From Polyangia bacterium (GTDB lineage: Bacteria; Myxococcota_A; Polyangia; Nannocystales; Nannocystaceae), in the NCBI GenBank assembly GCA_030424595.1, contig JAUHWG010000003.1, positions 248,001 to 312,000 on the forward strand: 64,000 bases of DNA, written 5' to 3'. The position numbers and the translations under genes are program-made. Shown in pieces: positions 1,691 to 29,643 of the stretch. The notes beneath the pieces were generated by a model. It ran no database searches and had not been told where the DNA came from. It saw only the letters and a list, made by a program, of their open reading frames with translations. Within the stretch, counting starts at the first letter, position 1; every line of letters starts with the position of its first letter.

Positions 1691-2767
1691 ATGGAGCGAG
1701 TCAGGCTATGTTCGGGTGCGCGAATGCGACCGCCTAGCACCTCCTCGACCTCTCCGATGGGCTCTCCGCGGACGGCTCGATCGTCGCGCGCTCTCGCCTT
1801 CGTCCTCAGCGTGCTCTCTGCGGGGGTCCTGGCCTTTGCGCCGGTGATCGCCTCGGCGAGCGGCGTGGATGAGCGCACGGTCGATGACGCGGCCGCTGAG
1901 GCCGAGGCGCGGGAGCTCTCGCGCCTCGGCGAGTTTGTGGCTGCCAGTCGAGCGTGGGCGGCCATCGCCGCCTCGAGCGAGGACCCACAGACCCGCGCGG
2001 TCGCGGCGTTTCGCGGCTATCAGGCCTCGGTCTCCGCGTACGAGGCCGAGGGGGATGTCGCGTCGCTCTGTGTGGCGCGAGGACTGGTCTCGGGACTGGC
2101 AGCAGACGCTGAGGTGGACCTGCCGATCCGCGAAGATGCGGAGCGGAGGCTCGCGGAGATCGAGGGGCTGCTGAGCGACGGAGAGCTCGCCGGCACGTGC
2201 GAGCTCGAGCCTCAGCCTCAGTCTCCGGCCGATCCCTCTCCGCTCGAGGCGGACCCTCCTGTGGGCCCCGCGCTCTTGCCTGTCCGGACTCCGAGCGCCG
2301 AGCCTCCGGGGCGTGGGGCGGGAGCTGCATCGGCGACCGGCGAATTCGACGACGTCCGCGACCCCTCGGCTTCCTCAGAACAGGTCCGCCGCTTTCGCGT
2401 CGCCGGTGTGTTCACCGTCACCGCTGGTGCAGCGCTCCTGGGCGCGATGACCTACGGTCTCGTCGTCGACGCCCGTGCGGCCGCAGACCTTCGCGAGTAC
2501 CTGTCCAAGGCCGAGCAGGGATCGCTGAGCGCGGCCGACTGGTGGCGGATCGAGGGTCTCCGCTCGGAGGGCCGCTCCGCCACCCAGCTCGCGACCGCGA
2601 CTGGGATCGCCGGTGGTGTCGCGCTGGTATCCGGCGCTGCGCTGCTCTTGGCTGGCCGTCGCCTTGATCGCCGCGGTCGCGGCGCATTCGCTTCCTCTCC
2701 CACTCCTCGCGTCGGCTTTGGCGTCGGCAGGGGGAACGCATCGCTCATGCTCAGGGGCCGATTCTGA
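1691..2767 (+). CDS. Membrane-anchored hypothetical protein with TPR-like N-terminus
   Basis: About 358 residues. An AGGAAGG ribosome-binding site at 1677-1683 sits seven bases before ATG 1691; a GTG directly before it is a weaker alternative. A Sec-type signal or anchor lies near residues 32-56. A helical Ala/Glu-rich stretch follows (RELSRLGEFVAASRAW and on), like a degenerate TPR pair, then a Pro-rich linker. Two hydrophobic segments near the C-terminus flank an acidic loop. Its TGA overlaps the next gene's ATG, so translation is probably coupled. The neighbouring kinase and lipoprotein suggest a shared envelope-signalling role, which is inference. I recognise no family. Confidence 0.75.
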   Translation: MERVRLCSGARMRPPSTSSTSPMGSPRTARSSRALAFVLSVLSAGVLAFAPVIASASGVDERTVDDAAAEAEARELSRLGEFVAASRAWAAIAASSEDPQTRAVAAFRGYQASVSAYEAEGDVASLCVARGLVSGLAADAEVDLPIREDAERRLAEIEGLLSDGELAGTCELEPQPQSPADPSPLEADPPVGPALLPVRTPSAEPPGRGAGAASATGEFDDVRDPSASSEQVRRFRVAGVFTVTAGAALLGAMTYGLVVDARAAADLREYLSKAEQGSLSAADWWRIEGLRSEGRSATQLATATGIAGGVALVSGAALLLAGRRLDRRGRGAFASSPTPRVGFGVGRGNASLMLRGRF

Positions 2768-4515
2768 TGGCACGTACGCATTCCAACGGACCCCTTTCCA
2801 GTCTCGCGATCATCACCGCTGTGACCACCACAGCGTTGATGCTATCTGCCTGCCAAGCGGAGAGCGCCTACCAGGCCCTGACGAGTCCGCCCTCGGAAGA
2901 CTTCGAAGGAGACACGACCGGGCTCACGGGCGTGAGCGGTGTGGAGTCCAGTGGAGAGTCTGCGAGCGTGACGATCACCGCGGTCACGAGCGACACGGGC
3001 AGCGGCGGATCATCAGCGACCCTCGATACGGACGGGGTCAGCGACACAGACGGGACTGACGGCGGCGACACGGACGACACTGAAGGGAGCGATGCTGGTC
3101 CGCCCGAGCTCGTCGGCGTCTCTCTAGCGCCGCAGCCGATCGTCGACAACGGACTCATCACCGCAGAGGTCCACGCGACGGCCAGCGACGGTGTTCGATT
3201 AACGCTCGACACCGGAGCGACTATCGAACTCGACGAGGCCGCTCCGGGGACCTTCACGGGGGCTTTTCCCGTCCTCACCGGCCTCGACAACGGGCCGCAC
3301 ATCGCCACGGTCACGCCCTGGCGCGGCGACATCGACGGCGAGTCTGCGGATGCCGCCTACACCATCGCGCTGCCCGAGCCCGGCACGGAGCTCTACTGGG
3401 AGACCGGGGACTTGCTCCTCGGCAAAGGCTGGGTCGACGCGGTGGGGCTGCTGTCCACAGGCGAGCTCATCGAGCTGGGTACGCGCCTCGACGACCAGGA
3501 CGTCCGTCGCTGCTATCTCCGGCGCCGCAACCCGGACGGCGGCTGGGGATCGCAGGACGTCATCGACATCATGCCCGGGCAGGAGTGCAAGGGCGTCGAT
3601 CTGGTCGTCCGCGAGAACGGAACGATCCACGCGCTCGTCTCCTGGAAGGTCAACGCCGACGAGTGGAGCTGGTGGCTCAGCGACATCCCGCAGTGGGGGA
3701 CCAACCCGCTGACGATGGCCTCGGGTGCGGCTGGCGAGGACGCCACAGCGCTCGCGTATCGCGATGGGGTGCTCGCGATCTGCGGGGCAGTGCCGAGCGG
3801 GTTTGGGGATCTGGACGCTTTCATTCGCGTCCTTGGCCTCGAGGCGGGGCCTATGTCTCGGACGTTCGACTATCTGCCCCAGGCGTGGGCGGATGAGGAT
3901 GTGCACTGGTTCGACGAGACTCCCTTGGACTGCGCTCTCTCGGACGCTGACACAGAGATGCTAGTCCTTGTCGGTGAAGCAAGGGGGGAGCACGTCAAAG
4001 AGATCGTGCGTTCGCGGCGGTTCATGCTCCCAGTTGATCTGGGGGGCGACGAGGTGCCCGTCTACTCCGTCGGAGAGGCGGGGCTCGTCTCGCAGAGCTA
4101 CGCGACCGCTGTCGACGTCAGTCCTGACGGCGAAGTCGTCGCCACCGGCTACATCTGCGGCTACCCGTGCGATCAGGAGGTCGAAGGGCGGCTGTGGCTC
4201 TACGATCTCGCAGGTGATGAAGAGTGGGAGAGTGCGCTGGGGGTCTTCTCCTACCCATTCCTCGCGCCGCATGCCTTGAGGTGGAGCTTCGCTGGTTACA
4301 TGGTCATCGGCCACGGGGGGCTCATCGGTGACGACAACACCTTCATGGTCCGGGCCTTCAAGCCGTTGCTCAAGGAGCCTCTGTGGACCTATTCACGGGT
4401 CGATCCGTTCGCGACCCACTGGTCTACGGCGCTCACGGTCGGTCCCTTCGGTCGCCTGTGTGCCGGTGGGTTTGGGGCGTCGACGTACCCCGCGGTGGCC
4501 TGCTTCGGGAGCTAG
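2767..4515 (+). CDS. Lipoprotein, probable beta-propeller-like surface protein
   Basis: 582 residues. The signal peptide ends in lipobox LSAC with Cys29 as the likely lipidated residue. A Thr/Ser/Asp/Gly-rich linker (about 35-112) follows, of the kind myxobacteria use to hold a domain away from the membrane. The rest reads as beta strands with repeated Trp/Gly/Asp spacing, such as YDLAGDEEWESALGVF and DVSPDGEVVATGY. The second matches the SPDG turn of WD40/PD40 blades, so a propeller is likely but unproven. The start codon overlaps the upstream stop. It is the last gene of the operon and converges on the next gene with only seven bases between stops. Confidence 0.75.
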   Translation: MARTHSNGPLSSLAIITAVTTTALMLSACQAESAYQALTSPPSEDFEGDTTGLTGVSGVESSGESASVTITAVTSDTGSGGSSATLDTDGVSDTDGTDGGDTDDTEGSDAGPPELVGVSLAPQPIVDNGLITAEVHATASDGVRLTLDTGATIELDEAAPGTFTGAFPVLTGLDNGPHIATVTPWRGDIDGESADAAYTIALPEPGTELYWETGDLLLGKGWVDAVGLLSTGELIELGTRLDDQDVRRCYLRRRNPDGGWGSQDVIDIMPGQECKGVDLVVRENGTIHALVSWKVNADEWSWWLSDIPQWGTNPLTMASGAAGEDATALAYRDGVLAICGAVPSGFGDLDAFIRVLGLEAGPMSRTFDYLPQAWADEDVHWFDETPLDCALSDADTEMLVLVGEARGEHVKEIVRSRRFMLPVDLGGDEVPVYSVGEAGLVSQSYATAVDVSPDGEVVATGYICGYPCDQEVEGRLWLYDLAGDEEWESALGVFSYPFLAPHALRWSFAGYMVIGHGGLIGDDNTFMVRAFKPLLKEPLWTYSRVDPFATHWSTALTVGPFGRLCAGGFGASTYPAVACFGS

Positions 4516-9621: not shown

Positions 9622-12291
9622 GTGAATACGGAGGAGAAACCGGGTGAGGCTGAGGCGATGACTCCGGAGTCGGGCCTCGCCGCGACATGGGCGGGGTCCC
9701 CGAGCGACGTTGGGGTCCGTCTGACGCGCGGCCCTGTCGCGACGCGACTCGGACGCTACATCATTCTCGACTTGCTCGGGAGCGGAGGGATGGGCCTCGT
9801 CTACTCCGCTTTTGATCCACAGCTCGACCGCCGGGTGGCCGTCAAAGTGCTCAGGCCAGAAGTCGGCGATCTGGCGGACCGACAGCGCCTCCTCCGCGAG
9901 GCGAAGGCCATGGCGAGGCTTGCCCATCCCAATGTCGTCGCTGTCTACGATGCGGGGGAAGAGGAGGGGCAGGCGTATGTCGCGATGGAGTTTGTTCGGG
10001 GCGCATCTCTCCGCCAGTGGTTGCGAGGGGAGCGATCTTGGGAAGACGTGATTTCTGTCTTCATCCAAGCAGGACAAGGTCTACAGGCCGCTCATGAGGT
10101 CGGTCTTGTCCACCGCGACTTCAAGCCTGACAATGTCCTGCTTACCGAGGATGGAGTCGCCAAGGTCGCTGACTTCGGCCTAGCCCGAGGTGGAGAGGCG
10201 ACTGTCGCGGAGGCGAAACCGGCAGGGGACGCCGACACCATCAAGGCCAGCCAAGAGATCGTCACGCAGGACGGAATGTTGGTTGGAACGCCAGCGTACA
10301 TGTCCCCTGAGCAGTTCCTAGGCTCGGTTGCCGACGCGAGATGCGACCAGTTTAGCTACTTTGTAGCCCTCTATGAGGCTCTATATGGTCATCTCCCATT
10401 CGAAGGCAGAACGCTCTCTGACCGCGTGATCAACATTACTAGCGGCCATCGTGCTCCTCGTCCGGCGACCACGTCAGTGCCACGGGCTGTCGACAGAGTG
10501 CTTGACCGCGGGCTCAGAGCGCGTCGAGAGGAGCGCTGGCCGACGATGAAGCTTGCGCTTGAGGCGTTGCGAGCTGCGGCTGGTAGAAGACGAGGCTGGT
10601 GGCGGCGACAAGTTGCATGGGGGGTGGGCAGCGTTGCAGTCGTTGGGGCTGTCATATTGGGTGTTCAGTGGCGAGTCCAGCGTGCTCTTGACGAGCGAAT
10701 GGAACTCTGCAAGGGGGCGGAAAGGGCTCTCGCGGGTGCCTGGGACGTTGAACGGCGGGGCAAGGTAAAGAAGGCGTTCCTGGATACGGGGTTGCCGTAC
10801 GCGCAGGACTCATGGATGAGCGTAGAGAAGCGTCTTGACGCGTTCTCTGCCGCCTGGGTCGAGATGCATACCGAGAGTTGCGAGTCTACCCACCTTCGTG
10901 GCGAGCAGTCGAATGCACTTCTGGATCTTCGAATGGCATGCTTGCAGCGAAGTCGCCTGGAAATGCGATCCCTTGTCGATGTATACGTGGATGCTGACGA
11001 TGGGGTTGTAGAACATGCCGTTGAGGCCCTGGAAGGGCTTTCGAGGCTTGAGAGGTGCGCCGATGTTACAACACTGCTTGCTTCTCCCAAGAGAACTCTC
11101 GACGACTCAGATCCGGTCGTAGTCGCTACTTTTGAGGGCCTTGCTCAGGCAAGAGCACTCGAGTTCTCCGCCAACTACGCGCTTGCTCTGGAACATGCCA
11201 TACAGACCCGAGAGAAGGCGTCGTCTACAGGAGATCGCGCACTCGTTGCAGAGGCTCGGTTGCTGGAGGGGCAGATACGTGACTCTCTTGGGGAGTTGAC
11301 CGCCGGTGAAGTTCTGGAAGATGCCTTCTTCCTCGCCGAGGAGTTGGACGACCCATTTCTCCCCGCGCTGGCCTCTCTCGACCTCATGAGTCACACAACC
11401 GTGCTGCGAGACACCGCTGGCGCCGATATGTGGGCTCGTCATACGAGAGCTTTGCTAGAGCGGGTTCGAGCCCGCAAACGGTCTGAGTACGACTGGCTCA
11501 ATGTCTCATATTTGTTCACTCTAGGGACGCTCAGCGTAAACAAGGGCCTTCTTGCTGAGGCCGAGGATCAGTACCGCAGCGGCCTTCGTCAGGCGAAGGC
11601 GTTGCTCGATACGACTCCTCTCGTGATGGCGGGAGCTCGCAATAATTTCGGAAACCTTCTGGTTCTACGGGGCGATCTTGAGGAGGCTGCGAAAGAACTC
11701 CACATTGCCGCTGCTCTCTACAGAGAGCAGCTCGGTGAGCATCACCCCTTATACGGGGCATCGCTCAACAACCTGGCCACATTGGATATGCACAGGGGGG
11801 AGTGGGGGCGTGCTCGGGACTCGTTCGAGCGGGTCCTTTCCATATTCACCGCGGCGCTTGGCGCCGGGCATCCGAACGTGGGAGTTGCTGAAAACAACCT
11901 AGGTGATGTCGCGCTCCACTTTGGTAAAAAGGGGCCTGCGCTTGAGCACTACAGTCGGTCTCTTGAGATATTCGTCGCATCCCTCGGTCCTGACGCGCCG
12001 GCCCTCGCGTATCCCCTTACAGGAATTGGTGAGATCGAGCTGGAGAGAGGGGATCTTGTTGAGGCTCGTGCTTTGCTGGAGCGTGCGTTGGTGCTGCGAG
12101 GCGCCGATAGAAGCCATGAGAGCGCTCGCACGCGATTTGCCTTGGCTCGCGCTCTTGATGAGGAGTCGCGGCCTCGGGCGCTTCAGCTCGCTGCCGAGGC
12201 TCGGACATTGTACGAAGACGGAGGGGCTGCATATGCGAGCGAACTGGAGGGGGTCGTGTCGTGGATCGCGAAGGTGTCGCTCGGTCCGTGA
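9622..12291 (+). CDS. Membrane Ser/Thr kinase with TPR sensor/effector tail
   Basis: 889 residues from GTG 9622, behind a run of Gs that could serve as ribosome-binding site; ATG 9658 is an alternative. Kinase domain about 45-320: glycine loop GSGGMGLV 53-60, Lys75, HRDFKPDN 164-171, DFG 184-186, GTPAYMSPEQ. One transmembrane segment near 330-348 would leave the kinase in the cytoplasm. The C-terminal half contains kinesin-light-chain-type TPRs, with the recurring LGEHHPLYGASLNNLA and LGAGHPNVGVAENNLG pattern. Third codon positions are clearly less G/C-rich than in flanking genes, suggesting transfer. It is a close paralogue in layout of the kinase at 51497-54244. Substrate unknown. Confidence 0.85.
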   Translation: MNTEEKPGEAEAMTPESGLAATWAGSPSDVGVRLTRGPVATRLGRYIILDLLGSGGMGLVYSAFDPQLDRRVAVKVLRPEVGDLADRQRLLREAKAMARLAHPNVVAVYDAGEEEGQAYVAMEFVRGASLRQWLRGERSWEDVISVFIQAGQGLQAAHEVGLVHRDFKPDNVLLTEDGVAKVADFGLARGGEATVAEAKPAGDADTIKASQEIVTQDGMLVGTPAYMSPEQFLGSVADARCDQFSYFVALYEALYGHLPFEGRTLSDRVINITSGHRAPRPATTSVPRAVDRVLDRGLRARREERWPTMKLALEALRAAAGRRRGWWRRQVAWGVGSVAVVGAVILGVQWRVQRALDERMELCKGAERALAGAWDVERRGKVKKAFLDTGLPYAQDSWMSVEKRLDAFSAAWVEMHTESCESTHLRGEQSNALLDLRMACLQRSRLEMRSLVDVYVDADDGVVEHAVEALEGLSRLERCADVTTLLASPKRTLDDSDPVVVATFEGLAQARALEFSANYALALEHAIQTREKASSTGDRALVAEARLLEGQIRDSLGELTAGEVLEDAFFLAEELDDPFLPALASLDLMSHTTVLRDTAGADMWARHTRALLERVRARKRSEYDWLNVSYLFTLGTLSVNKGLLAEAEDQYRSGLRQAKALLDTTPLVMAGARNNFGNLLVLRGDLEEAAKELHIAAALYREQLGEHHPLYGASLNNLATLDMHRGEWGRARDSFERVLSIFTAALGAGHPNVGVAENNLGDVALHFGKKGPALEHYSRSLEIFVASLGPDAPALAYPLTGIGEIELERGDLVEARALLERALVLRGADRSHESARTRFALARALDEESRPRALQLAAEARTLYEDGGAAYASELEGVVSWIAKVSLGP

Positions 12292-12400: not shown

Positions 12401-13657
12401 CTACTTGCGGTTCTTCAGCCGCTTCCCAGTCCGCGCTCCATGGCGAATCGCCCGCGACATCGCCTGCACAGCATCGCTGACCACTGAATCCGCGATATGC
12501 GCGTAGCGAGCGGTCGTCTCCGGCCGGCGGTGGCCGAGGATCTTCCCGACCACGGCGAGCGGAACCCCGGCCATCAGCGCATCGCTGGCGGCGGAGTGGC
12601 GCAGGTCGTGGAGGCGAACCCCCTCGAAGCCTGGAATGCGGTCGCGGACCCGCTCGCACCAGGTCCTCGTGAGCGACGAGGAGAAGATCCGCTTGCCGAC
12701 GCGGGAGTAGACCACGTGTCTGGGCTTGGGGCTGTGCTGGCAGGCCTCCCAGACCTTCCGACACTCGCGGACGAGCGCGAGCGTGTCGTCGGAGACGGGG
12801 ACGATCTTCTGCCCGGTCTTGGAGTCGGGGAGGCGGAAGCAGCGGTGGCGGGTGTCGACCATGTCCCAGGTGAGGTCGAGGATCTCGTCGCGTCGCATCC
12901 CGGTCATCGCCAGGAGGCGAATCGCTGCGACCGCGTGCCAGCTCAGGTGGCCTCGCTCGTTGGGCTTGCGCTCCAGGGCCTGGTCGAGGAAGCGCTCGAG
13001 CTTGGCCCGCTCTCGCGGTCCGAGGAAGCGCTCGCGCCTCCGTCGGGGGAACCTCGGGACGCCCCGGGTGGGCGGGGTGAAGCTGTGATCGAGGACTCGC
13101 CACGCGATCGCCTTGGAGTAGATGGAGCTCAGGAGCTGGAGGTTCGCGTTCGCGGTGCTCGGCGTATCTGCGAGTGATGCGTGGAATCGGGTGACGTCGA
13201 CGTTGTCGATCGAGTCAAGCGGCATCGCCCCGAATGCGGGGACCAGGTAGCGCTTGACCATATGTCGATAGTCTTTGAGCGTGCTGGGCTTCAGTCGTAT
13301 CGCCGCGTGTTCTCGTAGGAATCGAGCCGCGAAATCTCGAAAATTGGGGCACTTGACAGGCCGATCGGTCTGAAATGCCCCGTTGCGGGCGCCGCGCAGG
13401 GGCCGTTCTGGGGCTCCTGATGACCCCGCGAGGTGGTCCCTGGCGAGGCGTGATGCATCGTCGATGCTGAGCTCTGTGGTGGCCCCGAGGCGGAGCCTGC
13501 GGTCCCTCCCGTGCTGGTCGCGGAACCGCACGTAGTAGGCCTTCTTGCCGCTCGGAAGCACGCGGAGGAAGAAGCCGACGACGCGCGAACACGACACTTC
13601 GTACTTGGTCTTGCGCGGCTTTGATCGCGCGACAATTCGCTCTGTCAGACGAGGCAT
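12401..13657 (-). CDS. Tyrosine recombinase / phage-type integrase
   Basis: 418 residues from ATG 13657; the open frame extends upstream over an AT-rich repeat region that is more likely attachment-site DNA. Layout: an N-terminal arm-binding-like region (RFRDQHGRDRRLRLGA), a SAM-like core-binding domain (about 115-200), and a catalytic domain. Catalytic residues are visible: Arg in TGMRRDEIL, HDLRHS at 350-355, His376 in GHRRPETT, and nucleophile Tyr385 in TARYAH. All are present, so the enzyme may be active. It converges on the kinase gene and sits beside a gene that has lost its 5' end, as expected for the edge of an integrated element. Confidence 0.9.
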   Translation of the reverse strand: MPRLTERIVARSKPRKTKYEVSCSRVVGFFLRVLPSGKKAYYVRFRDQHGRDRRLRLGATTELSIDDASRLARDHLAGSSGAPERPLRGARNGAFQTDRPVKCPNFRDFAARFLREHAAIRLKPSTLKDYRHMVKRYLVPAFGAMPLDSIDNVDVTRFHASLADTPSTANANLQLLSSIYSKAIAWRVLDHSFTPPTRGVPRFPRRRRERFLGPRERAKLERFLDQALERKPNERGHLSWHAVAAIRLLAMTGMRRDEILDLTWDMVDTRHRCFRLPDSKTGQKIVPVSDDTLALVRECRKVWEACQHSPKPRHVVYSRVGKRIFSSSLTRTWCERVRDRIPGFEGVRLHDLRHSAASDALMAGVPLAVVGKILGHRRPETTARYAHIADSVVSDAVQAMSRAIRHGARTGKRLKNRK

Positions 13658-13790
13658 GGGCCGCGAACCAAAATCGAACCAAAATCGAACCAAGACAAGC
13701 CAAAAAACAGTACCCAAATTGGAACGTAAATTCAAGAATTTGGGCCCGTAGGGCGGTTCTGCGCGAAGCGTTCTCATTCTCGATCAGACC
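13658..13790. other. Probable attachment-site region beside the integrase
   Basis: This AT-rich patch stands out from its surroundings. GAACCAAAATC is directly repeated at 13665-13675 and 13676-13686 with a partial third copy, as integrase arm sites often are. CCCAAATT at 13713-13720 and AATTTGGG at 13737-13744 form an inverted repeat. Coding DNA of the truncated Cys-rich gene resumes right after 13751. No tRNA gene is present, and I could not find the partner site in the window. Confidence 0.45.
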
Positions 13791-21047: not shown

Positions 21048-21579
21048 CAGCCCGTGGTGGAGCTCCCGTGTTCCCGTGTGCTCTCGCGGTGAGTCGTCGG
21101 TGACGACCGCACTGGCTCTGTCGGTCTGTCACCCTCGACAGGTAGCTATCATCCGCCGTCATGGTGTGAGGGGAGAGCTCCTCCGTATCCACCTTGCCGT
21201 GGTGTGAGGCGTCGACGGACCACGGCCCGTGCCCGGTGAGCAGGTGAGCCTCGGCGGCGGCGAGTCGCCGACGATCACTTCAGTAGAGAAGAGGCTGTTC
21301 GACTCGGACTTGAGCGGGACTGTCGGCTCCTCGCCCGCGGTCGTCCTGCTCTCGACCATCTCTCGACCATCTCTCGACCATCTCCGCTCCTCGGAGTTGG
21401 CTCGATCTTCGAGGTGCTCGCCCTGGCCACGATCGCGCTCACGATCACCTTCGCCCTGAGCGCATTCGGAGTGCACAGGAGCGATCTCTAGCGCGGCTGA
21501 TATCCGCCACTTGTCGCCTCCGCAGGTGGTCTATGCTCGCGGACCTGCGGTCGGCAAGGCCACCGCGAGAGGACGATCC
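21048..21579. other. Intergenic region with 11-bp triplet repeat, possible broken small gene
   Basis: CTCTCGACCAT is repeated three times at about 21350-21383. With two copies, a plus-strand frame would run from SSPAVVLLSTIS into a hydrophobic end (IFEVLALATIALTITFAL) stopping at 21491; with three copies it is broken. This may be a decayed small membrane-protein gene or chance. The promoter of the next gene is expected here. Confidence 0.3.
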
Positions 21580-23655
21580 ATGCAGCTCCCTGGCCCGACC
21601 GATCTCACCAACCGCGACGCCTTCGCCGAGCTCTGCGCGGCGATCCGACGACGCTTCGCCGACCACGCGGACGGACCGCTCTTCGTCACTGCGGCGGCGG
21701 ATCTCTGGGAGCTCTTCCTCGAGACGATACCGGCGGAGCTGCGGGCGGGCTACACCTGCAACACCTGTCGACGCTTCATCGAGCGCTACGGGGCGATGGT
21801 GACGGTCGACGACGCTGGGCGCCTGAACGCAGCGCTCTGGCCGAGCGAAGCGCCCCAGGGCTTTGAGCGTGCCTTTGCCAGCCTCGCCGAGGCCGTGACC
21901 GCGGCGCCGATCCGCGACGTTCTCCTGCCGCCGACGACGGTGCTCGGCATCCCGGCATCGCCGCCCACGGCCGACGGCAAGGTCTGGGACCACATCTCTG
22001 TCGAGGTCCCGCAGGCCCACGCCCATCCGCTCCGAAACGCCGGGCAGGTCGCGGCGGAGCGTCGTCAGGACTGGCAGATGCTCGCGCGGGCGCTGGCCGA
22101 GTTCCCGCAGGAGATCGTCGAGCGCGCGCTCATCCTCCTCAAGTCGGGCACGCTCTACCGGTCGGAGAAGTGTATCGGCGTCGCGACCTGGCTCTTCGAT
22201 CTGCACCGGAGCCGCGCTGCCCTCTCCTCCGCTCGGCAGCGTGACGCGCTCCTGTGGCGGGCTGTCGCGACCGCGCCCGCCGGCTACGCGCACGTCCGCG
22301 GCGGGATGATCGGTACGCTCCTGGAGGATCTCGCGAGCGGTCTCGACAGCGCGGCGATCAAGCGGCGCTTCGACGAGAAGATGGATCCGAGCCAGTACAT
22401 GCGCGCCCAGGTCGCGCCGACCGCTGGCAACATCGCCCAGGCCGAGCAGGCGATCGCTGGCCTCAAGGCGAGCGGCGCGCTCGCCCGCCGCTACGCCCGG
22501 CTCAGCGACGTCGCCGAGCACCTCCTCTGGCGACCGCCGCCGCCTCAGCCGAGCGTCGCGCCCGGTGGGGTCTTCAGTCATCTGACACCAAAGGCCCCGC
22601 GGCGGCCCGAGCTGGAGCTGCCGGCTCAGACCCTGACATGGGAGAAGTTCGCGCGGACCGTCCTCGACGACGCCCGGACCATCGAGGTCCAGATCCCGGC
22701 CAACTCAGCGCGCTTTGTCGCCCTTGTCACGGCCGCGGAGCCCGAATCGCCGCCGATCCTTCAGTGGGACTCCGAGGACGAGCGCAACCAAGTGAGCTGG
22801 TACTACCACGCGGGGATCGACGCCGAGATGCGGCGACGGGTCGAGGGCGCCGGCGGCCAGTACGAGGGGGTGGACATCCGCGCTTCGCTGCGCTGGGACA
22901 ACCGCAACGATCTCGATCTTCATATGATCACTCCCCGCCGCGAGCACATCTACTACGGTGCGAAGCGGTCGTCCTGCGCCGGCTGGCTCGACGTCGACAT
23001 GAACGTGAGGGGCGAGACCACCGTCCCTGTCGAGAACATCCGCTGGGGCCGCGGCAAGGCTCAGCGAGGGCGCTACTCGGTCTACGTCCAGAACTACCGC
23101 TTCCACGAGCGCGGCCGAGCGCCTACGCCTTTCAACGTCGAGATCGAGATCAGCGGCGAGATCTATCACTTCGCCGGTGTCGCCTCGCCGCGTGGCGAGA
23201 CGGGCGCCTCGTCGAACGTGCAAATCCTCGACTTTGACTATGTCCCCGGCCAGCCCCTCGCGACCCCTCCGCGGGGCACGACGGCGGCATCGACCAGCGA
23301 GCGCTGGAGCGTCGCACCTGGGGCCTGGGTCCCCGTGATGGGCATCGTCCCTTCGCCGAACCTCTGGGGCGAGCGACCGCAGGTCCGCCACGGCCGCCAC
23401 ACCTTCTTCCTCCTGAAGGACTGTCGCGATACGGCGGAAGGGCAGGGCCGAGGCTTCTTCACCGAGACCCTTCGCAGCGAGCTTCACAGCGTCCGAGCCA
23501 CGCTCGAGGCGTTCACCCAGAGCGCGACGATCGCCGGCGCTGATGAGGCCGACGCCTGTGGCCTCGGCATGACCGACCAGCAGCCGTGGGATCTCCTGCT
23601 GCGGGTCACCACCGCCAACTCGGTGGCGCACTATCGGCTTGACCGCTGGGACTGA
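21580..23655 (+). CDS. Large protein with DUF2135-type C-terminal domain, upstream of tubulins
   Basis: 691 residues from ATG 21580 (GAGAGGA about seven bases upstream). No signal peptide or membrane segment, so it is probably cytoplasmic. The N-terminal half is helical with a CNTC pair near residue 60 and no recognised family. Residues about 433-545 match DUF2135/YfaP: LRWDNRNDLDLHMITP, HIYYGAKRSSCAGWLDVDMN, PVENIRWGRG, GRYSVYVQNYRF. This beta-sandwich is usually found in proteins linked to surface or tellurium-type modules; its ligand is unknown. It is the nearest gene upstream of the tubulin pair on the same strand (307 bases), so a functional link is plausible but unproven. Confidence 0.75.
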   Translation: MQLPGPTDLTNRDAFAELCAAIRRRFADHADGPLFVTAAADLWELFLETIPAELRAGYTCNTCRRFIERYGAMVTVDDAGRLNAALWPSEAPQGFERAFASLAEAVTAAPIRDVLLPPTTVLGIPASPPTADGKVWDHISVEVPQAHAHPLRNAGQVAAERRQDWQMLARALAEFPQEIVERALILLKSGTLYRSEKCIGVATWLFDLHRSRAALSSARQRDALLWRAVATAPAGYAHVRGGMIGTLLEDLASGLDSAAIKRRFDEKMDPSQYMRAQVAPTAGNIAQAEQAIAGLKASGALARRYARLSDVAEHLLWRPPPPQPSVAPGGVFSHLTPKAPRRPELELPAQTLTWEKFARTVLDDARTIEVQIPANSARFVALVTAAEPESPPILQWDSEDERNQVSWYYHAGIDAEMRRRVEGAGGQYEGVDIRASLRWDNRNDLDLHMITPRREHIYYGAKRSSCAGWLDVDMNVRGETTVPVENIRWGRGKAQRGRYSVYVQNYRFHERGRAPTPFNVEIEISGEIYHFAGVASPRGETGASSNVQILDFDYVPGQPLATPPRGTTAASTSERWSVAPGAWVPVMGIVPSPNLWGERPQVRHGRHTFFLLKDCRDTAEGQGRGFFTETLRSELHSVRATLEAFTQSATIAGADEADACGLGMTDQQPWDLLLRVTTANSVAHYRLDRWD

Positions 23656-23962
23656 CCGCTGGACTGACCGCTGGACTGACCGCTGGGACAGGATGACCCG
23701 AGCGCGGAGGCGATGACGGCTCGCGGACGCGCCGTACTCGCGGGTCCTATGGAAGCGCGGGGACGGGACCAGGGCGCAGGGGCGCCCCAGGAAGGGGCCC
23801 GTGGACATGTGCGCGAAGCGGCGACTCGGGGCGAGGGCCTTGAAGTCGACCCGAACGGCGAGCCGCGTGACGTGATGTCGACGGTCGGGCGCGCGAAGCC
23901 GACCGCGACAGCGTCGGTCGCACCTTCGCCCGCGTGTGCTTGATAGAGTCGGAGCCGCGCTC
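23656..23962. other. Gap before the first tubulin gene, with short tandem repeats
   Basis: GACCGCTGGACT-type units recur about four times around 23640-23690, including the last codons of the upstream gene and its stop. The remaining ~270 bases show no gene. A promoter for the tubulin genes is likely here, but I cannot define boxes. Confidence 0.5.
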
Positions 23963-25279
23963 ATGGCCCGAGAAATCATCTGCATCCACGTCGGCGGCTG
24001 CGGGCTCCGGCTCGGCCTCGACTTTTGGGACATGCTCCGCGACGAGCACGGCCTCGAGAACGACGGCAAGTTCGTCGTCCGCGACGACGGCCTCGACGAC
24101 GAGCGCCGCGCCAAGATCGAGGTCTTCTTCCGCAAGGCGAGCGGCGACCGCTATGTGCCGCGCGCGGTGCTCGTCGACCTCGATCCGGGCACTCTCGACG
24201 AGATCAGGGCCAGCCCGATAGGCTCGCTCTTCCGGCCCGACAACTACGTGTTCGGTCAGTCAGGCGCGGGCAACAACTGGGCGAAGGGCCACTACACCGA
24301 GGGCGCCGAGCTCATCGCCGCGGTCGTCGACGTCGCGCGTCGCGAGATCGAGGCCTGCGACGCGCCCCAGGGCTTCATCCTCTTCCACGCGCTGGGCGGC
24401 GGGACCGGCTCGGGCCTCGGCACGCTGGTCGTGTCCAAGCTCCGCGAAGAGTACCCAAGCCTGCTCCGGGCGAGCGTGTCGGTGTTCCCCTCGGCCAAGG
24501 TCAGCGACGTCGTCGTCGAGCCCTACAACGCGACCCTCAGCGTCCACCAGTTGATCGAGAACGCCGACCTGACCCTGGTGATCGACAATGAGGCGGTCTT
24601 CAACCTGGCCCGCCGCGCCGGAGCCAGCGCGCCGCGCTACTCCGATCTCAACGCCCTCATCATCCAGGCGCTCAGCGGTGCGACAGCCTCGCTGCGCTTC
24701 CCGGCCCACGCCAACGCTGATCTCCGGGCGCTGGCGACCAACCTCGTGCCTCTCCCCCGGCTGCACTTCATTCACGTCGCCCACGCTCCGCTCGCGCTCC
24801 CCGGCGCACGGCCTGGGAGGACCTCGATCCAGCAGCTGAGCGCGCTGCTGGCCGAAGGCGGGCGGAGCTCGATCAGCGCGACGACCCTGGGCCCGACCTG
24901 GGCGGCGACGCCCCTCTACCGCGGAGGGCTGACCGACCGCGCGGTCCATGAGCTCGTCCGCGACGGTCAGTCCAGCATGGCGGGAGCGCGGGTCGGCTGG
25001 ATCCCCACGGGGCTGACGCCCGCTCGCGTGCGTCCGCCGGCCCGCGGATCGAGCCTCAGCGCGACGCTGCTGGCGAACAGCCAGGGGATCAGAGACGTCT
25101 TCCAGCGGCTCAGCGACCAGTTCGCCGTCCTCTACAAGCGCAAGGCCTTCCTTCACTGGTACACGGGCGAGGGCATGGACGCGATGGAGCTCCAGGAGGC
25201 CGCTCACAACCTGCGCCAGCTCGTCGCCGAGTACGTCCTGCGCGCCGATCTCCCCCCAACCCCCAACGAGGGGTCGTAG
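23963..25279 (+). CDS. Bacterial tubulin, beta-tubulin-like
   Basis: 438 residues from ATG 23963 (GGAG about nine bases upstream). The whole chain aligns by eye with eukaryotic beta-tubulin, far closer than FtsZ, TubZ or CetZ. GTP site: GGCG 11-14, VDLDP 71-75, GAGNNWAKGHYTEGAEL 101-117, T4 loop GGGTGSG 145-151, VEPYNATLSVHQL from 185, IDNEA 207-211, Asn230. C-terminal half: NLVPLPRLHF, WIPTG, short S9-S10 loop as in beta, RKAFLHWYTGEGMD, and helices to the end without a long acidic tail. At the T7 loop it has DLRAL; beta-tubulins have DLRKL. It should bind GTP and polymerise, probably with the alpha-like product of the next gene. Codon use matches neighbours, with no introns. Confidence 0.93.
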   Translation: MAREIICIHVGGCGLRLGLDFWDMLRDEHGLENDGKFVVRDDGLDDERRAKIEVFFRKASGDRYVPRAVLVDLDPGTLDEIRASPIGSLFRPDNYVFGQSGAGNNWAKGHYTEGAELIAAVVDVARREIEACDAPQGFILFHALGGGTGSGLGTLVVSKLREEYPSLLRASVSVFPSAKVSDVVVEPYNATLSVHQLIENADLTLVIDNEAVFNLARRAGASAPRYSDLNALIIQALSGATASLRFPAHANADLRALATNLVPLPRLHFIHVAHAPLALPGARPGRTSIQQLSALLAEGGRSSISATTLGPTWAATPLYRGGLTDRAVHELVRDGQSSMAGARVGWIPTGLTPARVRPPARGSSLSATLLANSQGIRDVFQRLSDQFAVLYKRKAFLHWYTGEGMDAMELQEAAHNLRQLVAEYVLRADLPPTPNEGS

Positions 25280-25440
25280 CCTGTGGCGAGAGTATCGCGT
25301 GCTCTCGCGCCGCAGTCGTGGGCCCTCTCGGCCGTCGACAAAACACCGCTGTACCGGGCAGGGCTGCAGGTCTCGGCGGGGCTGAGAGGACGACGAGGGC
25401 GAGCGAGCGCGCGCGGGACTATTGCTACGGGCTGTCAAGA
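25279..25440. repeat. Dispersed ~150-bp palindromic repeat, copy A
   Basis: Fills most of the 185-bp gap between the two tubulin genes. It aligns along its full length, at roughly three quarters identity by eye, with the reverse complement of 39321-39484. The shared core is CCGCTGTACCGGGC (25346-25359), and outer arms carry GCTCTCGCG and a rough inverse (GCGAGCGCGCGCGGGACT). The element looks like a non-coding REP/MITE-type repeat. It ends just before the strong ribosome-binding site of the alpha-like gene. Confidence 0.7.
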
Positions 25441-25464
25441 GCAGCCCTCGGGAGGTGAAGACGA

Positions 25465-26784
25465 ATGACGCGCGAGATCATCACGATCGCGGTCGGCGGC
25501 GCGGGCTGCCGCATGGCCTTGGAGTTTTGGCGTCGGCTCATGGCCGAGCACGGCATCGCCGCGAACGGCCGCAGCGCGAGGCGCTCGAGCGCGGGGGAGA
25601 GGCCGCGCACCTTCTTCGTCGAGACCCGCGCGGGTCACTTTGCGCCGCGGGCCCTCTTCGTCGACCTCGACCCCGAGACCCGCGAAGAGCTTGGCGCGCA
25701 CGAGCTGCGCCAAGTTCTCCACCCCGAATTCATCGTCGTAGGTGAGGCCGACGCAGCCAGCAACTTCGCCCGCGGCCGCGACCTCGGGGGGGAGGGGCTC
25801 CTCGACCGCGTCCGTGACCGCGTCCGCCGGCTCGTCGACAACACCGAGAACCTCCAGGGCTTCGTCCTCTTTCACGCCGCTGGAGGCGGCACGGGCTCGG
25901 GCGTCGCTGCGGCGCTCCTCGACCGTCTCGCCGCCGACTACCGGAAGAAGAGCGTCGTCAGCTTCACGCTCATGCCCTCGCTCGTGTTTCAGCGCGCTGC
26001 GACCGAGCCCTACAACGCGATGCTCGCCCTGGGCACGCTGCGGACCCGGAGCGCGCTCAGCTTCGTGTTCGACAACGACGCGCTCTATCGGATGTGCCAG
26101 CGCTCGCTCGGCGTCAAGGACCCGAGCCTCGCCGACCTCAACCGCCTCATCGGCCAGGCCGCCGCCGACGTCACCGCGGTGCTGCGCTACGCCGACGCCG
26201 AAGCCGACCTTGGCACCCTCCAGACCAGCCTCGTCTGCGCGCCGGGCCGCCACTTTATCACGATCTCGATCGCGCCCGTCGAGACCCCCGCCAAGCTCGC
26301 TACGGACCACCCCGACGTGTCGGCGATCTCCGACAACGCGCGCTCTCCTCAGGCCTGCCTCGCCGCGCTCGACACGGGCGATCCGAGCGCCGAGAAGACC
26401 ATCGCTGCGCTGCTCATCTACCGAGGAAAGATCGCCGCCAAGGAGATCCACGCGAGCCTGACCACGCTCAGGGCCCAGGGCTGGCCGAGCTTCGTCGAGG
26501 GCATCCCCGGCGCTCTGAAGGCCTTTCAAGTCGAGGCCCAGGCGACCGGCCTCAAGGGCGACGCCCGTGCCCCCGCGGGCAGGACAGTCACCCTGCTCGC
26601 TGCGACCACGGCGATGGCCGGCTACCTCCGCGAGCGCGTCGAGAACAGCGCCGGGCCCATGTTCGCCGGCCAGGCCTACACGCACTGGTTTGCCGGGGCA
26701 GGGGTCGACGCCGACGAGCTCCTCACGGCGCGGGGCGAGCTCCTCGGCCTCATCGAGGGCTACGCCAGCTTCCTCGACGCCTGA
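25465..26784 (+). CDS. Bacterial tubulin, alpha-tubulin-like
   Basis: 439 residues from ATG 25465, behind a strong GGGAGGTG site. It aligns by eye with alpha-tubulin: GGAG 11-14 (alpha has GQAG, beta GQCG), PRALFVDLDP 61-70, HPEFIVVGEADAASNFARG 86-104, T4 loop GGGTGSG 140-146, TEPYNAML, FDNDALY 202-208, DLNRLI, and HWFAGAGVDADEL near the end. The S9-S10 loop is about five residues longer than in the beta-like partner, as in alpha-tubulins. The T7 segment reads EADLGTLQTSLV: Asp248 is kept, but Thr251 replaces the catalytic Glu254 that triggers GTP hydrolysis on beta. Divergence from eukaryotes is larger than for the first gene. Expected partner: the beta-like protein upstream. Confidence 0.9.
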   Translation: MTREIITIAVGGAGCRMALEFWRRLMAEHGIAANGRSARRSSAGERPRTFFVETRAGHFAPRALFVDLDPETREELGAHELRQVLHPEFIVVGEADAASNFARGRDLGGEGLLDRVRDRVRRLVDNTENLQGFVLFHAAGGGTGSGVAAALLDRLAADYRKKSVVSFTLMPSLVFQRAATEPYNAMLALGTLRTRSALSFVFDNDALYRMCQRSLGVKDPSLADLNRLIGQAAADVTAVLRYADAEADLGTLQTSLVCAPGRHFITISIAPVETPAKLATDHPDVSAISDNARSPQACLAALDTGDPSAEKTIAALLIYRGKIAAKEIHASLTTLRAQGWPSFVEGIPGALKAFQVEAQATGLKGDARAPAGRTVTLLAATTAMAGYLRERVENSAGPMFAGQAYTHWFAGAGVDADELLTARGELLGLIEGYASFLDA

Positions 26785-27438: not shown

Positions 27439-29583
27439 TCAGCCAGATGTTCGTAGGGGGGATACGTTTGCAGCCTCGCGTCGTCCACGGCTGCGCCGAC
27501 CGTGAAGTGGTAGAGCACCTGAAAGCGATCGCCTTCGAGGCCAAAAGGTGTGGTGAGTCAGGTCGTCGAAGAAGCAGCCAATTCCGGTGCCGCGAAGCCC
27601 CGAGGCCTCGGCTTCGAGGTAGAGGACTTGACCGATGACGCCGGTCTCCCAGTACAGGCGGCGGTAGAACCAGGGGCCGTGTGTCTGCAGAGGGTCGCGG
27701 AACTCGGCGAGCATGGCGACGGTGAAGACTCCGTCGGCGGCGATGGCCTGGTTGCAGCTCGTGTGCCGGGCGACAGCGCGCGCGTCTCCTCCTTCGAGAA
27801 GATAGAGACCGAGCGAGCGCGGGCACGCCTCGCTCCGGGTCCACACAAAGCTCGGATCCATCGCCTCTCGCAGCGCGGGCAGGCGCGTGGCGTCACGCAC
27901 AAGCGCGTAGAGGCCCGGCGGCAGACCTTCGACGCGGTGGACAAAGAGCAGGAGGTCGATCGCTGGTCGCCAAGGCAAGCTGGAGAACGGGATCTGGTCG
28001 GTGCCTGGCACGGTCTTGAGCAAGATTTGATGAAAGGCCTCGCGCGTGAGCCCGCTGCGTCCGTCGAACGCGACCGCACTCCGCCGCTGATGGATCACCT
28101 GGCGCAGCGAGAGCGGAGCGTCGCCCAGCTCGAGCGACCTGTTCTCGACCCGCGACGCGTCCCACAGTCCAGGGCCAGGCGGCCGGTGTTTCCTCGTCGC
28201 GCCGGCCACCTCGTCGATGATGGGCCAGTCCTGGTGATCCTGGCTGAGCTGGTTCGGCTCGCCTTGCCAGGGTCCGCGACGCAGTCCGGCGACAAGCTCG
28301 TCGCCGATGCAAACGTGTTCGAGGTCCCCAGGCGCGCCGCCGCCCGGGAACACGGCGATGAGGCAATCGGGATGCTCTGCCTCCGCGCCGCTCTGGCGAT
28401 CGATGCCGAGGAGCGACGCGAGCTCATCGTCGACCACGCTCTCGAGCAGCCGCGCGTCCCAACCGAGACCCGCCGCTGCGACCGAGACGCAGGCGATCGC
28501 GTGGCCGACGTCGTGCTGGCAGTATCGAAACGCTCGCTCCCCGTACTTCCACGACTCGCGCCAATGGATTGAGCTCAGTCCGATCAGCAGCGCGCCCGTC
28601 GGCAGCTGGTCTCGGAGGGCTCGCCACACGTCACCGTCTAGCTGGGCGCGAAGCTCCAACGCGTGGAGGTAGGGCGCGTAGTGGTAGACCGCCGGGCCCT
28701 GGAGCAGGCCCTGGAGCGGGCCCGAGATCAGATAGCCCTCAGTGGGGTGGAGGTTGCCGCTCGACGGGTTGACCCGCAGGGCCCATCGTGCGCCGGCCAC
28801 CGCCTTCCAGGCTGACAGCCCGAGCGCGTCTTGGAAGAGCCGGCCGACCGTCGCCGCGTTGACGGGGGCCGGCTCGATCTGCCCGAGGACAAAAGCCGGC
28901 TCGTAGCGAGGTGTGGGGCCCACGGGCTCGAGCGCGAGCGCGAAGCTCCGCGCTCCTTCGAAGCGGCGAAATGGATCTGGCTGACTCTCCCAGTCCATGT
29001 AGCCGAGTGAGGCTGCGAAGCGCCCGGGCATGTGCTTCGAGCGGTCGTGGTAGGCGAGCGTGAGCTCCAACGCTGCTTGGACCTCGTCATTGAGCAGCGC
29101 CCCCTCGAAGACGATCGCCACCGGCTCCGACGGGTTCGCCTGAATCGGCCCGACAGCGTTCGCCTGGCGCGAGAGCGCCTCGAGGCGCGAGAAGGTCAGA
29201 CCAGCCAGCTGCTGGGACCCGCATGTTGCTTGGGCGCGGCTGAAACACGCGGACGCCTTTGCGCCGAGACGGCTCGCCTGGGGGGCCAGGCCTTGACGGA
29301 TCTTGATCCCTGCCGCGGCCAATTTGATCAGCCCGCTGAGCAGATCCCCCACCACTCCCGTGCGCCCCGCCGCGATCCAGAGCCGCTCCCACGCCTCGTG
29401 GGCCTCCCAGTAGTACCCGCGATCGAAGAGCTCGATGCCCTCGACCCAGGTCGTGTTTGATCGCCATGCCTCGGGCTCGAGCGGCGCAGGGGGCAGCTCC
29501 TCGCGCCCGAAGGCGTGCCCCTTCGGGTCCCTCGTCGGGTGCGGCCAGAAACCAGGCACGTACGCATAGGGCGGGAAGCTCAT
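27439..29583 (-). CDS. DUF309 / SagB-type double nitroreductase fusion, frameshifted near its end
   Basis: 714 residues from ATG 29583. Residues about 40-140 form a DUF309 domain (YYWEAHEAWERLW). Two nitroreductase-fold halves of the SagB/ThcOx type follow: the first with NPSSGNLHPTEGYL and RAFRYCQHDVGHAIACV, the second with RRSAVAFDG, ASGLRGTGIGCFFDD. These use FMN and, in peptide pathways, oxidise azolines. Near 27543-27546 an A4 run (T4 on the coding strand) breaks the frame. Reading past it with one base fewer gives FGLEGDRFQVLYHFTVGAAV ... TYPPYEHL, ending at 27420, as the family expects. The annotated 3' end therefore carries ~33 wrong residues; a homopolymer sequencing error is possible. 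No cyclodehydratase partner is nearby. Confidence 0.8.
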   Translation of the reverse strand: MSFPPYAYVPGFWPHPTRDPKGHAFGREELPPAPLEPEAWRSNTTWVEGIELFDRGYYWEAHEAWERLWIAAGRTGVVGDLLSGLIKLAAAGIKIRQGLAPQASRLGAKASACFSRAQATCGSQQLAGLTFSRLEALSRQANAVGPIQANPSEPVAIVFEGALLNDEVQAALELTLAYHDRSKHMPGRFAASLGYMDWESQPDPFRRFEGARSFALALEPVGPTPRYEPAFVLGQIEPAPVNAATVGRLFQDALGLSAWKAVAGARWALRVNPSSGNLHPTEGYLISGPLQGLLQGPAVYHYAPYLHALELRAQLDGDVWRALRDQLPTGALLIGLSSIHWRESWKYGERAFRYCQHDVGHAIACVSVAAAGLGWDARLLESVVDDELASLLGIDRQSGAEAEHPDCLIAVFPGGGAPGDLEHVCIGDELVAGLRRGPWQGEPNQLSQDHQDWPIIDEVAGATRKHRPPGPGLWDASRVENRSLELGDAPLSLRQVIHQRRSAVAFDGRSGLTREAFHQILLKTVPGTDQIPFSSLPWRPAIDLLLFVHRVEGLPPGLYALVRDATRLPALREAMDPSFVWTRSEACPRSLGLYLLEGGDARAVARHTSCNQAIAADGVFTVAMLAEFRDPLQTHGPWFYRRLYWETGVIGQVLYLEAEASGLRGTGIGCFFDDLTHHTFWPRRRSLSGALPLHGRRSRGRREAANVSPLRTSG

Positions 29584-29643
29584 CGGCCCGAGTACCCCGG
29601 CCACCCTCAATTTGCGATATCAAGGGGGACGAGCGCTGGAACC

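Follow-up and report, generated by a model that had tools for sequence, protein, structure and literature searches.

A eukaryotic-type alpha/beta tubulin gene pair in a myxobacterial family, with both key T7-loop residues lost

The gene pair and its bacterial setting

Two adjacent tubulin genes lie on the forward strand of contig JAUHWG010000003.1, from a myxobacterium of the family Nannocystaceae, within a stretch of 64,000 nucleotides called the window here. The first, of beta type, occupies 23963..25279 (ATG to stop, 438 aa, with an in-frame GTG upstream of that ATG at 23936); the second, of alpha type, occupies 25465..26784 (ATG to stop, 439 aa). Both are open and uninterrupted. The gap of 185 nt between them (25280..25464, +) carries GGGAGGTGA just ahead of the alpha start, a putative ribosome-binding site of the alpha gene.

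An earlier reading made from the letters alone (the sequence-only reading) held that these genes encode full-length tubulins rather than FtsZ, the first with the beta-tubulin stretches GAGNNWAKGHYTEGAEL and RKAFLHWYTGEGMD, the second following alpha tubulin through its N-terminal half. Domain scores agree with most of this. Both products exceed the curated Pfam cut-offs (Tubulin 33 bits, Tubulin_C 26.6 bits), gene 1 with 197.1 and 30.3 bits and gene 2 with 159.9 and 44.5 bits. Both stretches are found in gene 1, which matches 174 PDB sequences at E <= 0.001 (best 468.7 bits, residues 3-429), the best 60 of them all named beta tubulin. Gene 2 matches 170 (best 287.7 bits), the best 60 all named alpha tubulin; as this likeness covers residues 3-433, it extends over the whole length and is not confined to the N-terminal half. 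The FtsZ model TIGR00065 gives 23.7 bits with gene 1, below its cut-off of 295.2, and no match with gene 2 at E <= 0.01. By these model and PDB scores both genes are nearer to eukaryotic alpha/beta tubulin than to FtsZ, which enters the trees described below as at most one row, the root. The host genome has a third Tubulin-domain match, on contig C28, judged FtsZ-like by eye. AlphaFold2 models of the single chains, made with 23-sequence alignments, have a mean predicted local distance difference test score (pLDDT) of 87.1 and a predicted template-modelling score (pTM) of 0.90 for beta, and 88.9 and 0.92 for alpha; the best solved matches are, respectively, the beta chain 7z7d_B (TM 0.94, root-mean-square deviation 1.5) and chain 9edr_A of a tubulin complex (0.94 and 1.6). 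The pair are real full-length alpha/beta-type tubulins, and by model scores they are not FtsZ.

The genes are at home in a bacterium, as had been read from the flanking sequence. Their contig is 413,344 bp long, in a 9.54-Mb genome that is 93.07% complete with 0.45% contamination, and the two genes share a G+C content at third codon positions (GC3) of 0.91, against 0.81-0.90 for three neighbours. A search of 98 related genomes found matches in five, all of the host family, myxobacteria like the host (5 of 29 genomes there; the other 24 have no tubulin match); a class-wide search returned the same five among 317, and an even sample of the phylum returned two of 377, both in the host family. All five have an adjacent pair, beta before alpha: the host itself (G000); G001 of the same genus (beta 81% identical); G004 (52%), whose pair sits in a contig of 1,548,822 bp; and G014 and G018 (37% and 31%), whose alpha genes were read from the loci and matched in the class search. 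The sequence-only reading had asked for the pair elsewhere in Myxococcota, and in these searches all matches belong to this family. Protein databases add five beta-alpha couples, on contigs of 9262, 6000, 37304, 3812 and 54219 bases, each couple presumably on one contig. Other phyla were covered by a pattern search (92 stretches, 4 loci), which is far from exhaustive, as Prosthecobacter was not returned.

Selection on both genes is purifying. Against the G001 counterpart (L012), nonsynonymous and synonymous divergence (dN/dS) is 0.101/0.237 for beta (about 0.43) and 0.118/0.238 for alpha (about 0.49); the comparison with a Polyangia metagenome-assembled genome (MAG), at 0.41/1.62 and 0.55/1.48, comes close to saturation. 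Most changes fall on third codon positions, and no match in the five genomes has an inner stop, the single TGA in the G014 and G018 betas being the end stop.

Two ways of dismissing the pair can be weighed on these data. One is contamination or misassembly with eukaryotic DNA. The scan of other phyla did return one probable case: contig JAADDM010000100.1 (3.4 kb) of a gammaproteobacterial MAG has, at 2227-3448 (L015), a beta tubulin of eukaryotic appearance whose gene is split across frames and is likely contamination. The window genes differ in being uninterrupted, in their GC3 and in the length of their contig and cleanness of their genome; because a similar pair recurs in other genomes, once in a 1.55-Mb contig, such an origin is very unlikely. 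The other is that transferred eukaryotic genes are decaying without function. Ratios of 0.43-0.49 are high for tubulin and point to looser selection than usual, and most genomes of the family show no match; but the frames lack inner stops, third positions vary most, and the two genes stay paired even where identity is 52% or less, which leaves decay a slim chance.

Descent of the pair

Prokaryotic tubulins of this type are reported from Verrucomicrobia (Prosthecobacter among them), from Asgard archaea and, doubtfully, from one Bathyarchaeia sequence (PMC13394414), and a 2023 survey names only Prosthecobacter and Odinarchaeota (PMC9871819). The string 'myxo' is absent from the main text of both papers and of PMC13371889. 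No published description of a myxobacterial pair was found among the open-access papers listed by literature searches, in line with the novelty first suggested; automatic NCBI names such as 'tubulin beta chain [Myxococcales bacterium]' do exist.

FtsZ is represented in the trees by a single root row at most, and CetZ, TubZ, Odinarchaeota, delta and epsilon tubulins have no rows. In a 50-row tree built with IQ-TREE under a C20 mixture and rooted on one FtsZ row, each myxobacterial subunit groups with its eukaryotic and Methylococcaceae counterparts (support 94/100 for beta, 82/99 for alpha); AtubA and BtubA are set apart (95/96), and BtubB falls beside the FtsZ root, a position flagged as a long-branch join. 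A 54-row alpha tree recovers a eukaryotic-type alpha clade (100/99), with the Asgard and Prosthecobacter rows outside. Forcing the myxobacterial betas together with AtubA/BtubA costs 106.6 log units in the approximately unbiased (AU) test (p-AU 0.000111), and forcing the alphas together with AtubB/BtubB costs 53.3 (p-AU 0.00002); both unions are rejected, and the pair therefore looks like a separate acquisition. This rejection of a clade uniting the pair with the Asgard tubulins and BtubA/B had escaped the sequence-only reading.

The betas allow a closer look. An 89-row tree, by a quick method, joins seven myxobacterial betas to 15 betas from Joint Genome Institute (JGI) data at 100 in the Shimodaira-Hasegawa-like approximate likelihood ratio test (SH-aLRT), a set nested in other betas (98) that excludes the Methylococcaceae betas. 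Two JGI sequences, P0055 and P0056, show about 57-62% identity to the ordinary betas compared, with Lys254 and long acidic tails; the JGI betas (P0055 and 14 others) come from contigs of 1.48-1.94 kb, and the rows that lack Glu or Lys at position 254 include none of these JGI sequences. A grouping of the nine eukaryotic-type betas that shuts out the bacterial ones is rejected (p-AU 0.0127), in a test chosen after the tree was seen. Placing the divergent G014 and G018 betas in the clade of the window beta is not rejected (p-AU 0.31), and their pairs (8970-11435 of L017 and 13700-16209 of L018, about 400 aa, with an altered beta T4 loop) are possibly the same acquisition, further changed. From the trees, an ancestor of this family likely acquired the pair from a eukaryote with divergent tubulins. 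Naegleria-type mitotic tubulins, reported at 62-66% identity to the flagellar beta (PMC9081340), are only a guess at the source group.

Another bacterial pair of eukaryotic type turned up in a Methylococcaceae MAG (JAIFMS010000145.1, 8598-11311, L014), on a 72-kb contig with neighbours that look by eye like trpE/trpG and efflux genes; a third Tubulin-domain match on another contig of that genome is presumably FtsZ. Relatives of its alpha occur in metagenomes (P0234, P0250, P0257, P0277, P0297 and P0314), one on a 254-kb contig. Its alpha, like that of the window, has the S9-S10 insert and a changed T1 loop; unlike the window, its alpha precedes beta (all five myxobacterial pairs put beta first) and retains Glu254. 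One acquisition shared with this lineage was considered and is rejected on the beta side (cost 52.8, p-AU 0.008).

The GTP pocket, residue 254 and the surrounding locus

Elements were compared with their eukaryotic counterparts for five sequences a side, between limits set by us, and the roles given to T3, T5, H11-H12, the M-loop and the rest are our assumption. The T4 glycine loop GGGTGSG, presumably phosphate-binding, is identical to the eukaryotic one in window beta (24395..24415, +) and window alpha (25882..25902, +). Over the five betas, identity is high in T4 (0.97), the H11-H12 segment (0.93), T3 (0.89) and T5 (0.85), middling in T1/H1 (0.56), T7 (0.48) and T6/H6 (0.47), and low in the M-loop (0.34), S9-S10 (0.24), H9 (0.21) and H10 (0.14); for the alphas the values are 0.85 in T4, 0.53 in T3, 0.43 in H11-H12 and 0.40 in T7. 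Most of the beta GTP pocket is conserved by this comparison, as is much of the beta longitudinal face, which we take to be T3, T5 and H11-H12; such a pattern would fit a GTP-bound head-to-tail polymer, and the unconserved M-loop makes a full-size microtubule less likely. Acidic tails are absent from both window proteins and present in a related beta, P0041. Window alpha has the S9-S10 insert of its eukaryotic counterparts, which BtubB and Loki AtubB lack.

The second feature that the sequence-only reading missed is the loss of both key residues of the T7 loop. Glu254 of alpha completes the GTPase site of beta in eukaryotic microtubules, while Lys254 of beta leaves the GTP of alpha unhydrolysed (PMC13394414). 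In the window the equivalent of the catalytic Glu254 is Thr (T251; codon 26215..26217, +) and that of Lys254 is Ala (A256; codon 24728..24730, +). The substitutions characterize the clade: with the window included, the nine alphas compared have Thr (6), Ser (2) or Ala (1) and never Glu, and the eight betas compared have Ala (5) or Ser (3) and never Lys, counts that leave out three odd rows (P0190 and P0195, both with Glu, and P0216, with Phe). Glu254 is present in all eight eukaryotic-type alphas, in all three AtubB/BtubB rows (BtubB, Loki AtubB and the Heim alpha) and in the Methylococcaceae alpha; Lys is present in all ten eukaryotic-type betas and both AtubA. BtubA has Glu at this position and Methylococcaceae-type betas have Asp, so these too lack Lys. 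Glu254 and Lys254 mark function rather than fold. Across 262 full-length rows (search results, two references included) the site is Glu in 159, Lys in 78, a gap in two and another residue in 23, of which 15 belong to the window clade and eight lie outside it.

The window pair can be set beside three known or newly seen systems. With eukaryotic alpha/beta tubulin, closest by sequence and tree, it shares the fold, the length, most beta pocket loops and the alpha insert; it differs in lacking Glu254, Lys254 and acidic tails, in its T1 loops and drifted alpha pocket, and in its bacterial two-gene locus. Like BtubA/BtubB of Prosthecobacter it is a bacterial alpha/beta-type pair in one locus (PMC5372463); the AU tests reject its union with them and their Asgard kin, it lacks the Glu that both of them carry at 254, and it adjoins no tetratricopeptide repeat (TPR) gene resembling the kinesin-light-chain-like bklc. 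Asgard AtubA/AtubB (Loki, Heim) are likewise a prokaryotic tubulin pair forming a heterodimer, as is predicted for the window proteins; union with them and the Btubs is rejected, and AtubB has Glu and AtubA Lys at 254.

No partner gene is shared among the loci: an all-against-all comparison of open reading frames (ORFs) of at least 70 aa, taking in the window and seven stretches around such loci (two from one contig), found beside the pair only tubulins and shadow frames, and other matches lay far from it, overlapping two-component genes where Pfam results existed. A 714-aa gene directly upstream (21511-23655, +) was considered as a Bklc counterpart and rejected, having no Pfam match at E <= 5, nor has a small gene downstream; Pfam shows no bklc-like TPR gene among the adjoining neighbours. 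Near the pair on the opposite strand, 27439-29610 (-) encodes a protein with DUF309 and nitroreductase domains that also matches a SagB-type peptide dehydrogenase model (TIGR03605, 89.1 bits; cut-off 78.4). Farther upstream lie a protein kinase with TPR repeats (9622-12288, +, about 12 kb away) and a phage-type integrase (12404-13777, -, about 10 kb ahead). The host genome has no kinesin motor match, a weak negative because none of 14 control genomes exceeded the cut-off either; its 139 TPR_12 matches are uninformative.

A predicted stable filament and its alternatives

How might such a pair act? Human microtubules with alpha E254A or E254N leave GTP unhydrolysed, remain stable and undergo no catastrophes, and E254D slows hydrolysis about fourfold (PMC7018511, PMC8764682). 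The window alpha lacks the residue that triggers hydrolysis, so unusually stable filaments are predicted. The account we favour, by a modest preponderance, is that a transferred eukaryotic pair forms a GTP-binding heterodimer that builds stable, non-dynamic head-to-tail filaments or few-stranded tubules. Heterodimers with GTP in beta at the inter-dimer interface would join end to end, and the alpha T7 loop would close on the beta GTP without hydrolysing it; no GDP state would accumulate, so that the filament would remain GTP-bound and escape catastrophe. Turnover would then depend on dilution, GTP exchange or some disassembly factor, and the most likely role would be that of a static scaffold beside FtsZ-based division. 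The dimer, its polymer, GTP binding, loss of GTPase, stability and role are all things we infer from sequence. The sequence-only reading, which is partly supported overall, had proposed a microtubule-like cytoskeleton: the tubulin pair stands, and with both key T7 residues lost a dynamic microtubule is less likely than a stable filament.

Two functional alternatives deserve comparison with the stable filament. A dynamic bacterial microtubule, with four- or five-stranded tubules and GTP-driven dynamic instability, is what AtubAB and BtubAB form (PMC13394414, PMC13371889), and the adjacency of the genes, the full predicted fold and the largely intact beta pocket would suit it; but the Glu254 that BtubB, Loki AtubB and the Heim alpha possess is missing from nine of nine clade alphas, and the AU tests place the pair outside those clades, so this is an unlikely account. 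A GTP-binding heterodimer that does not polymerise, and that now works as a switch, a regulator or a binding protein, would suit the drift in H9, H10, the M-loop, alpha T5 and alpha H11-H12, together with the missing tails and the lack of a conserved partner gene in the loci compared; yet beta T3, T5 and H11-H12 stay near eukaryotic identity and P0041 keeps its acidic tail, and we think this, too, improbable.

Several points weigh against the account of a transferred pair forming stable filaments. On descent, a single clade of myxobacterial and Methylococcaceae alphas is not rejected (p-AU 0.446), whereas that of the betas is; by the branching order of the alpha clade the myxobacterial alphas may lie inside or beside the eukaryotic ones; the 15 JGI betas are presumed eukaryotic; and tree checks flagged both joins between long branches and unusual composition, the second of these in the window rows too. 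The most distant pairs fit least: G014 and G018 have Glu at the beta 254 position, and their alphas have Ala there, in a poorly aligned stretch, and lack the S9-S10 insert. Nor is the loss of Glu or Lys unique to the clade, given the eight outside rows among the 262. On mechanism, the window T1 loops are changed (beta GQCGNQ to GGCGLR, alpha Gln11 to Gly), the base-stacking Tyr of alpha is Leu, identity falls to 0.28 in alpha T5, and drift affects H9, H10 and the M-loop, changes that could weaken GTP binding or polymerisation. Slow catalysis could still come from alpha E246 or D248, acids close to the site, and the polymer, GTP binding and expression are predictions.

To our knowledge a GTPase-dead tubulin filament exists otherwise only as engineered E254 mutants. 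Tentatively, and with somewhat less confidence than in the filament itself, the pair may constitute a third kind of prokaryotic tubulin cytoskeleton, a eukaryotic pair turned naturally GTPase-dead and serving as a permanently GTP-capped static scaffold. If it polymerises without Glu254, it would offer a natural test of why microtubules hydrolyse GTP, and bacterial work might gain a supply of stable tubulin. The presence of a eukaryotic-type pair in Myxococcota, apparently acquired separately, suggests that eukaryotic tubulin can enter bacteria and persist there.

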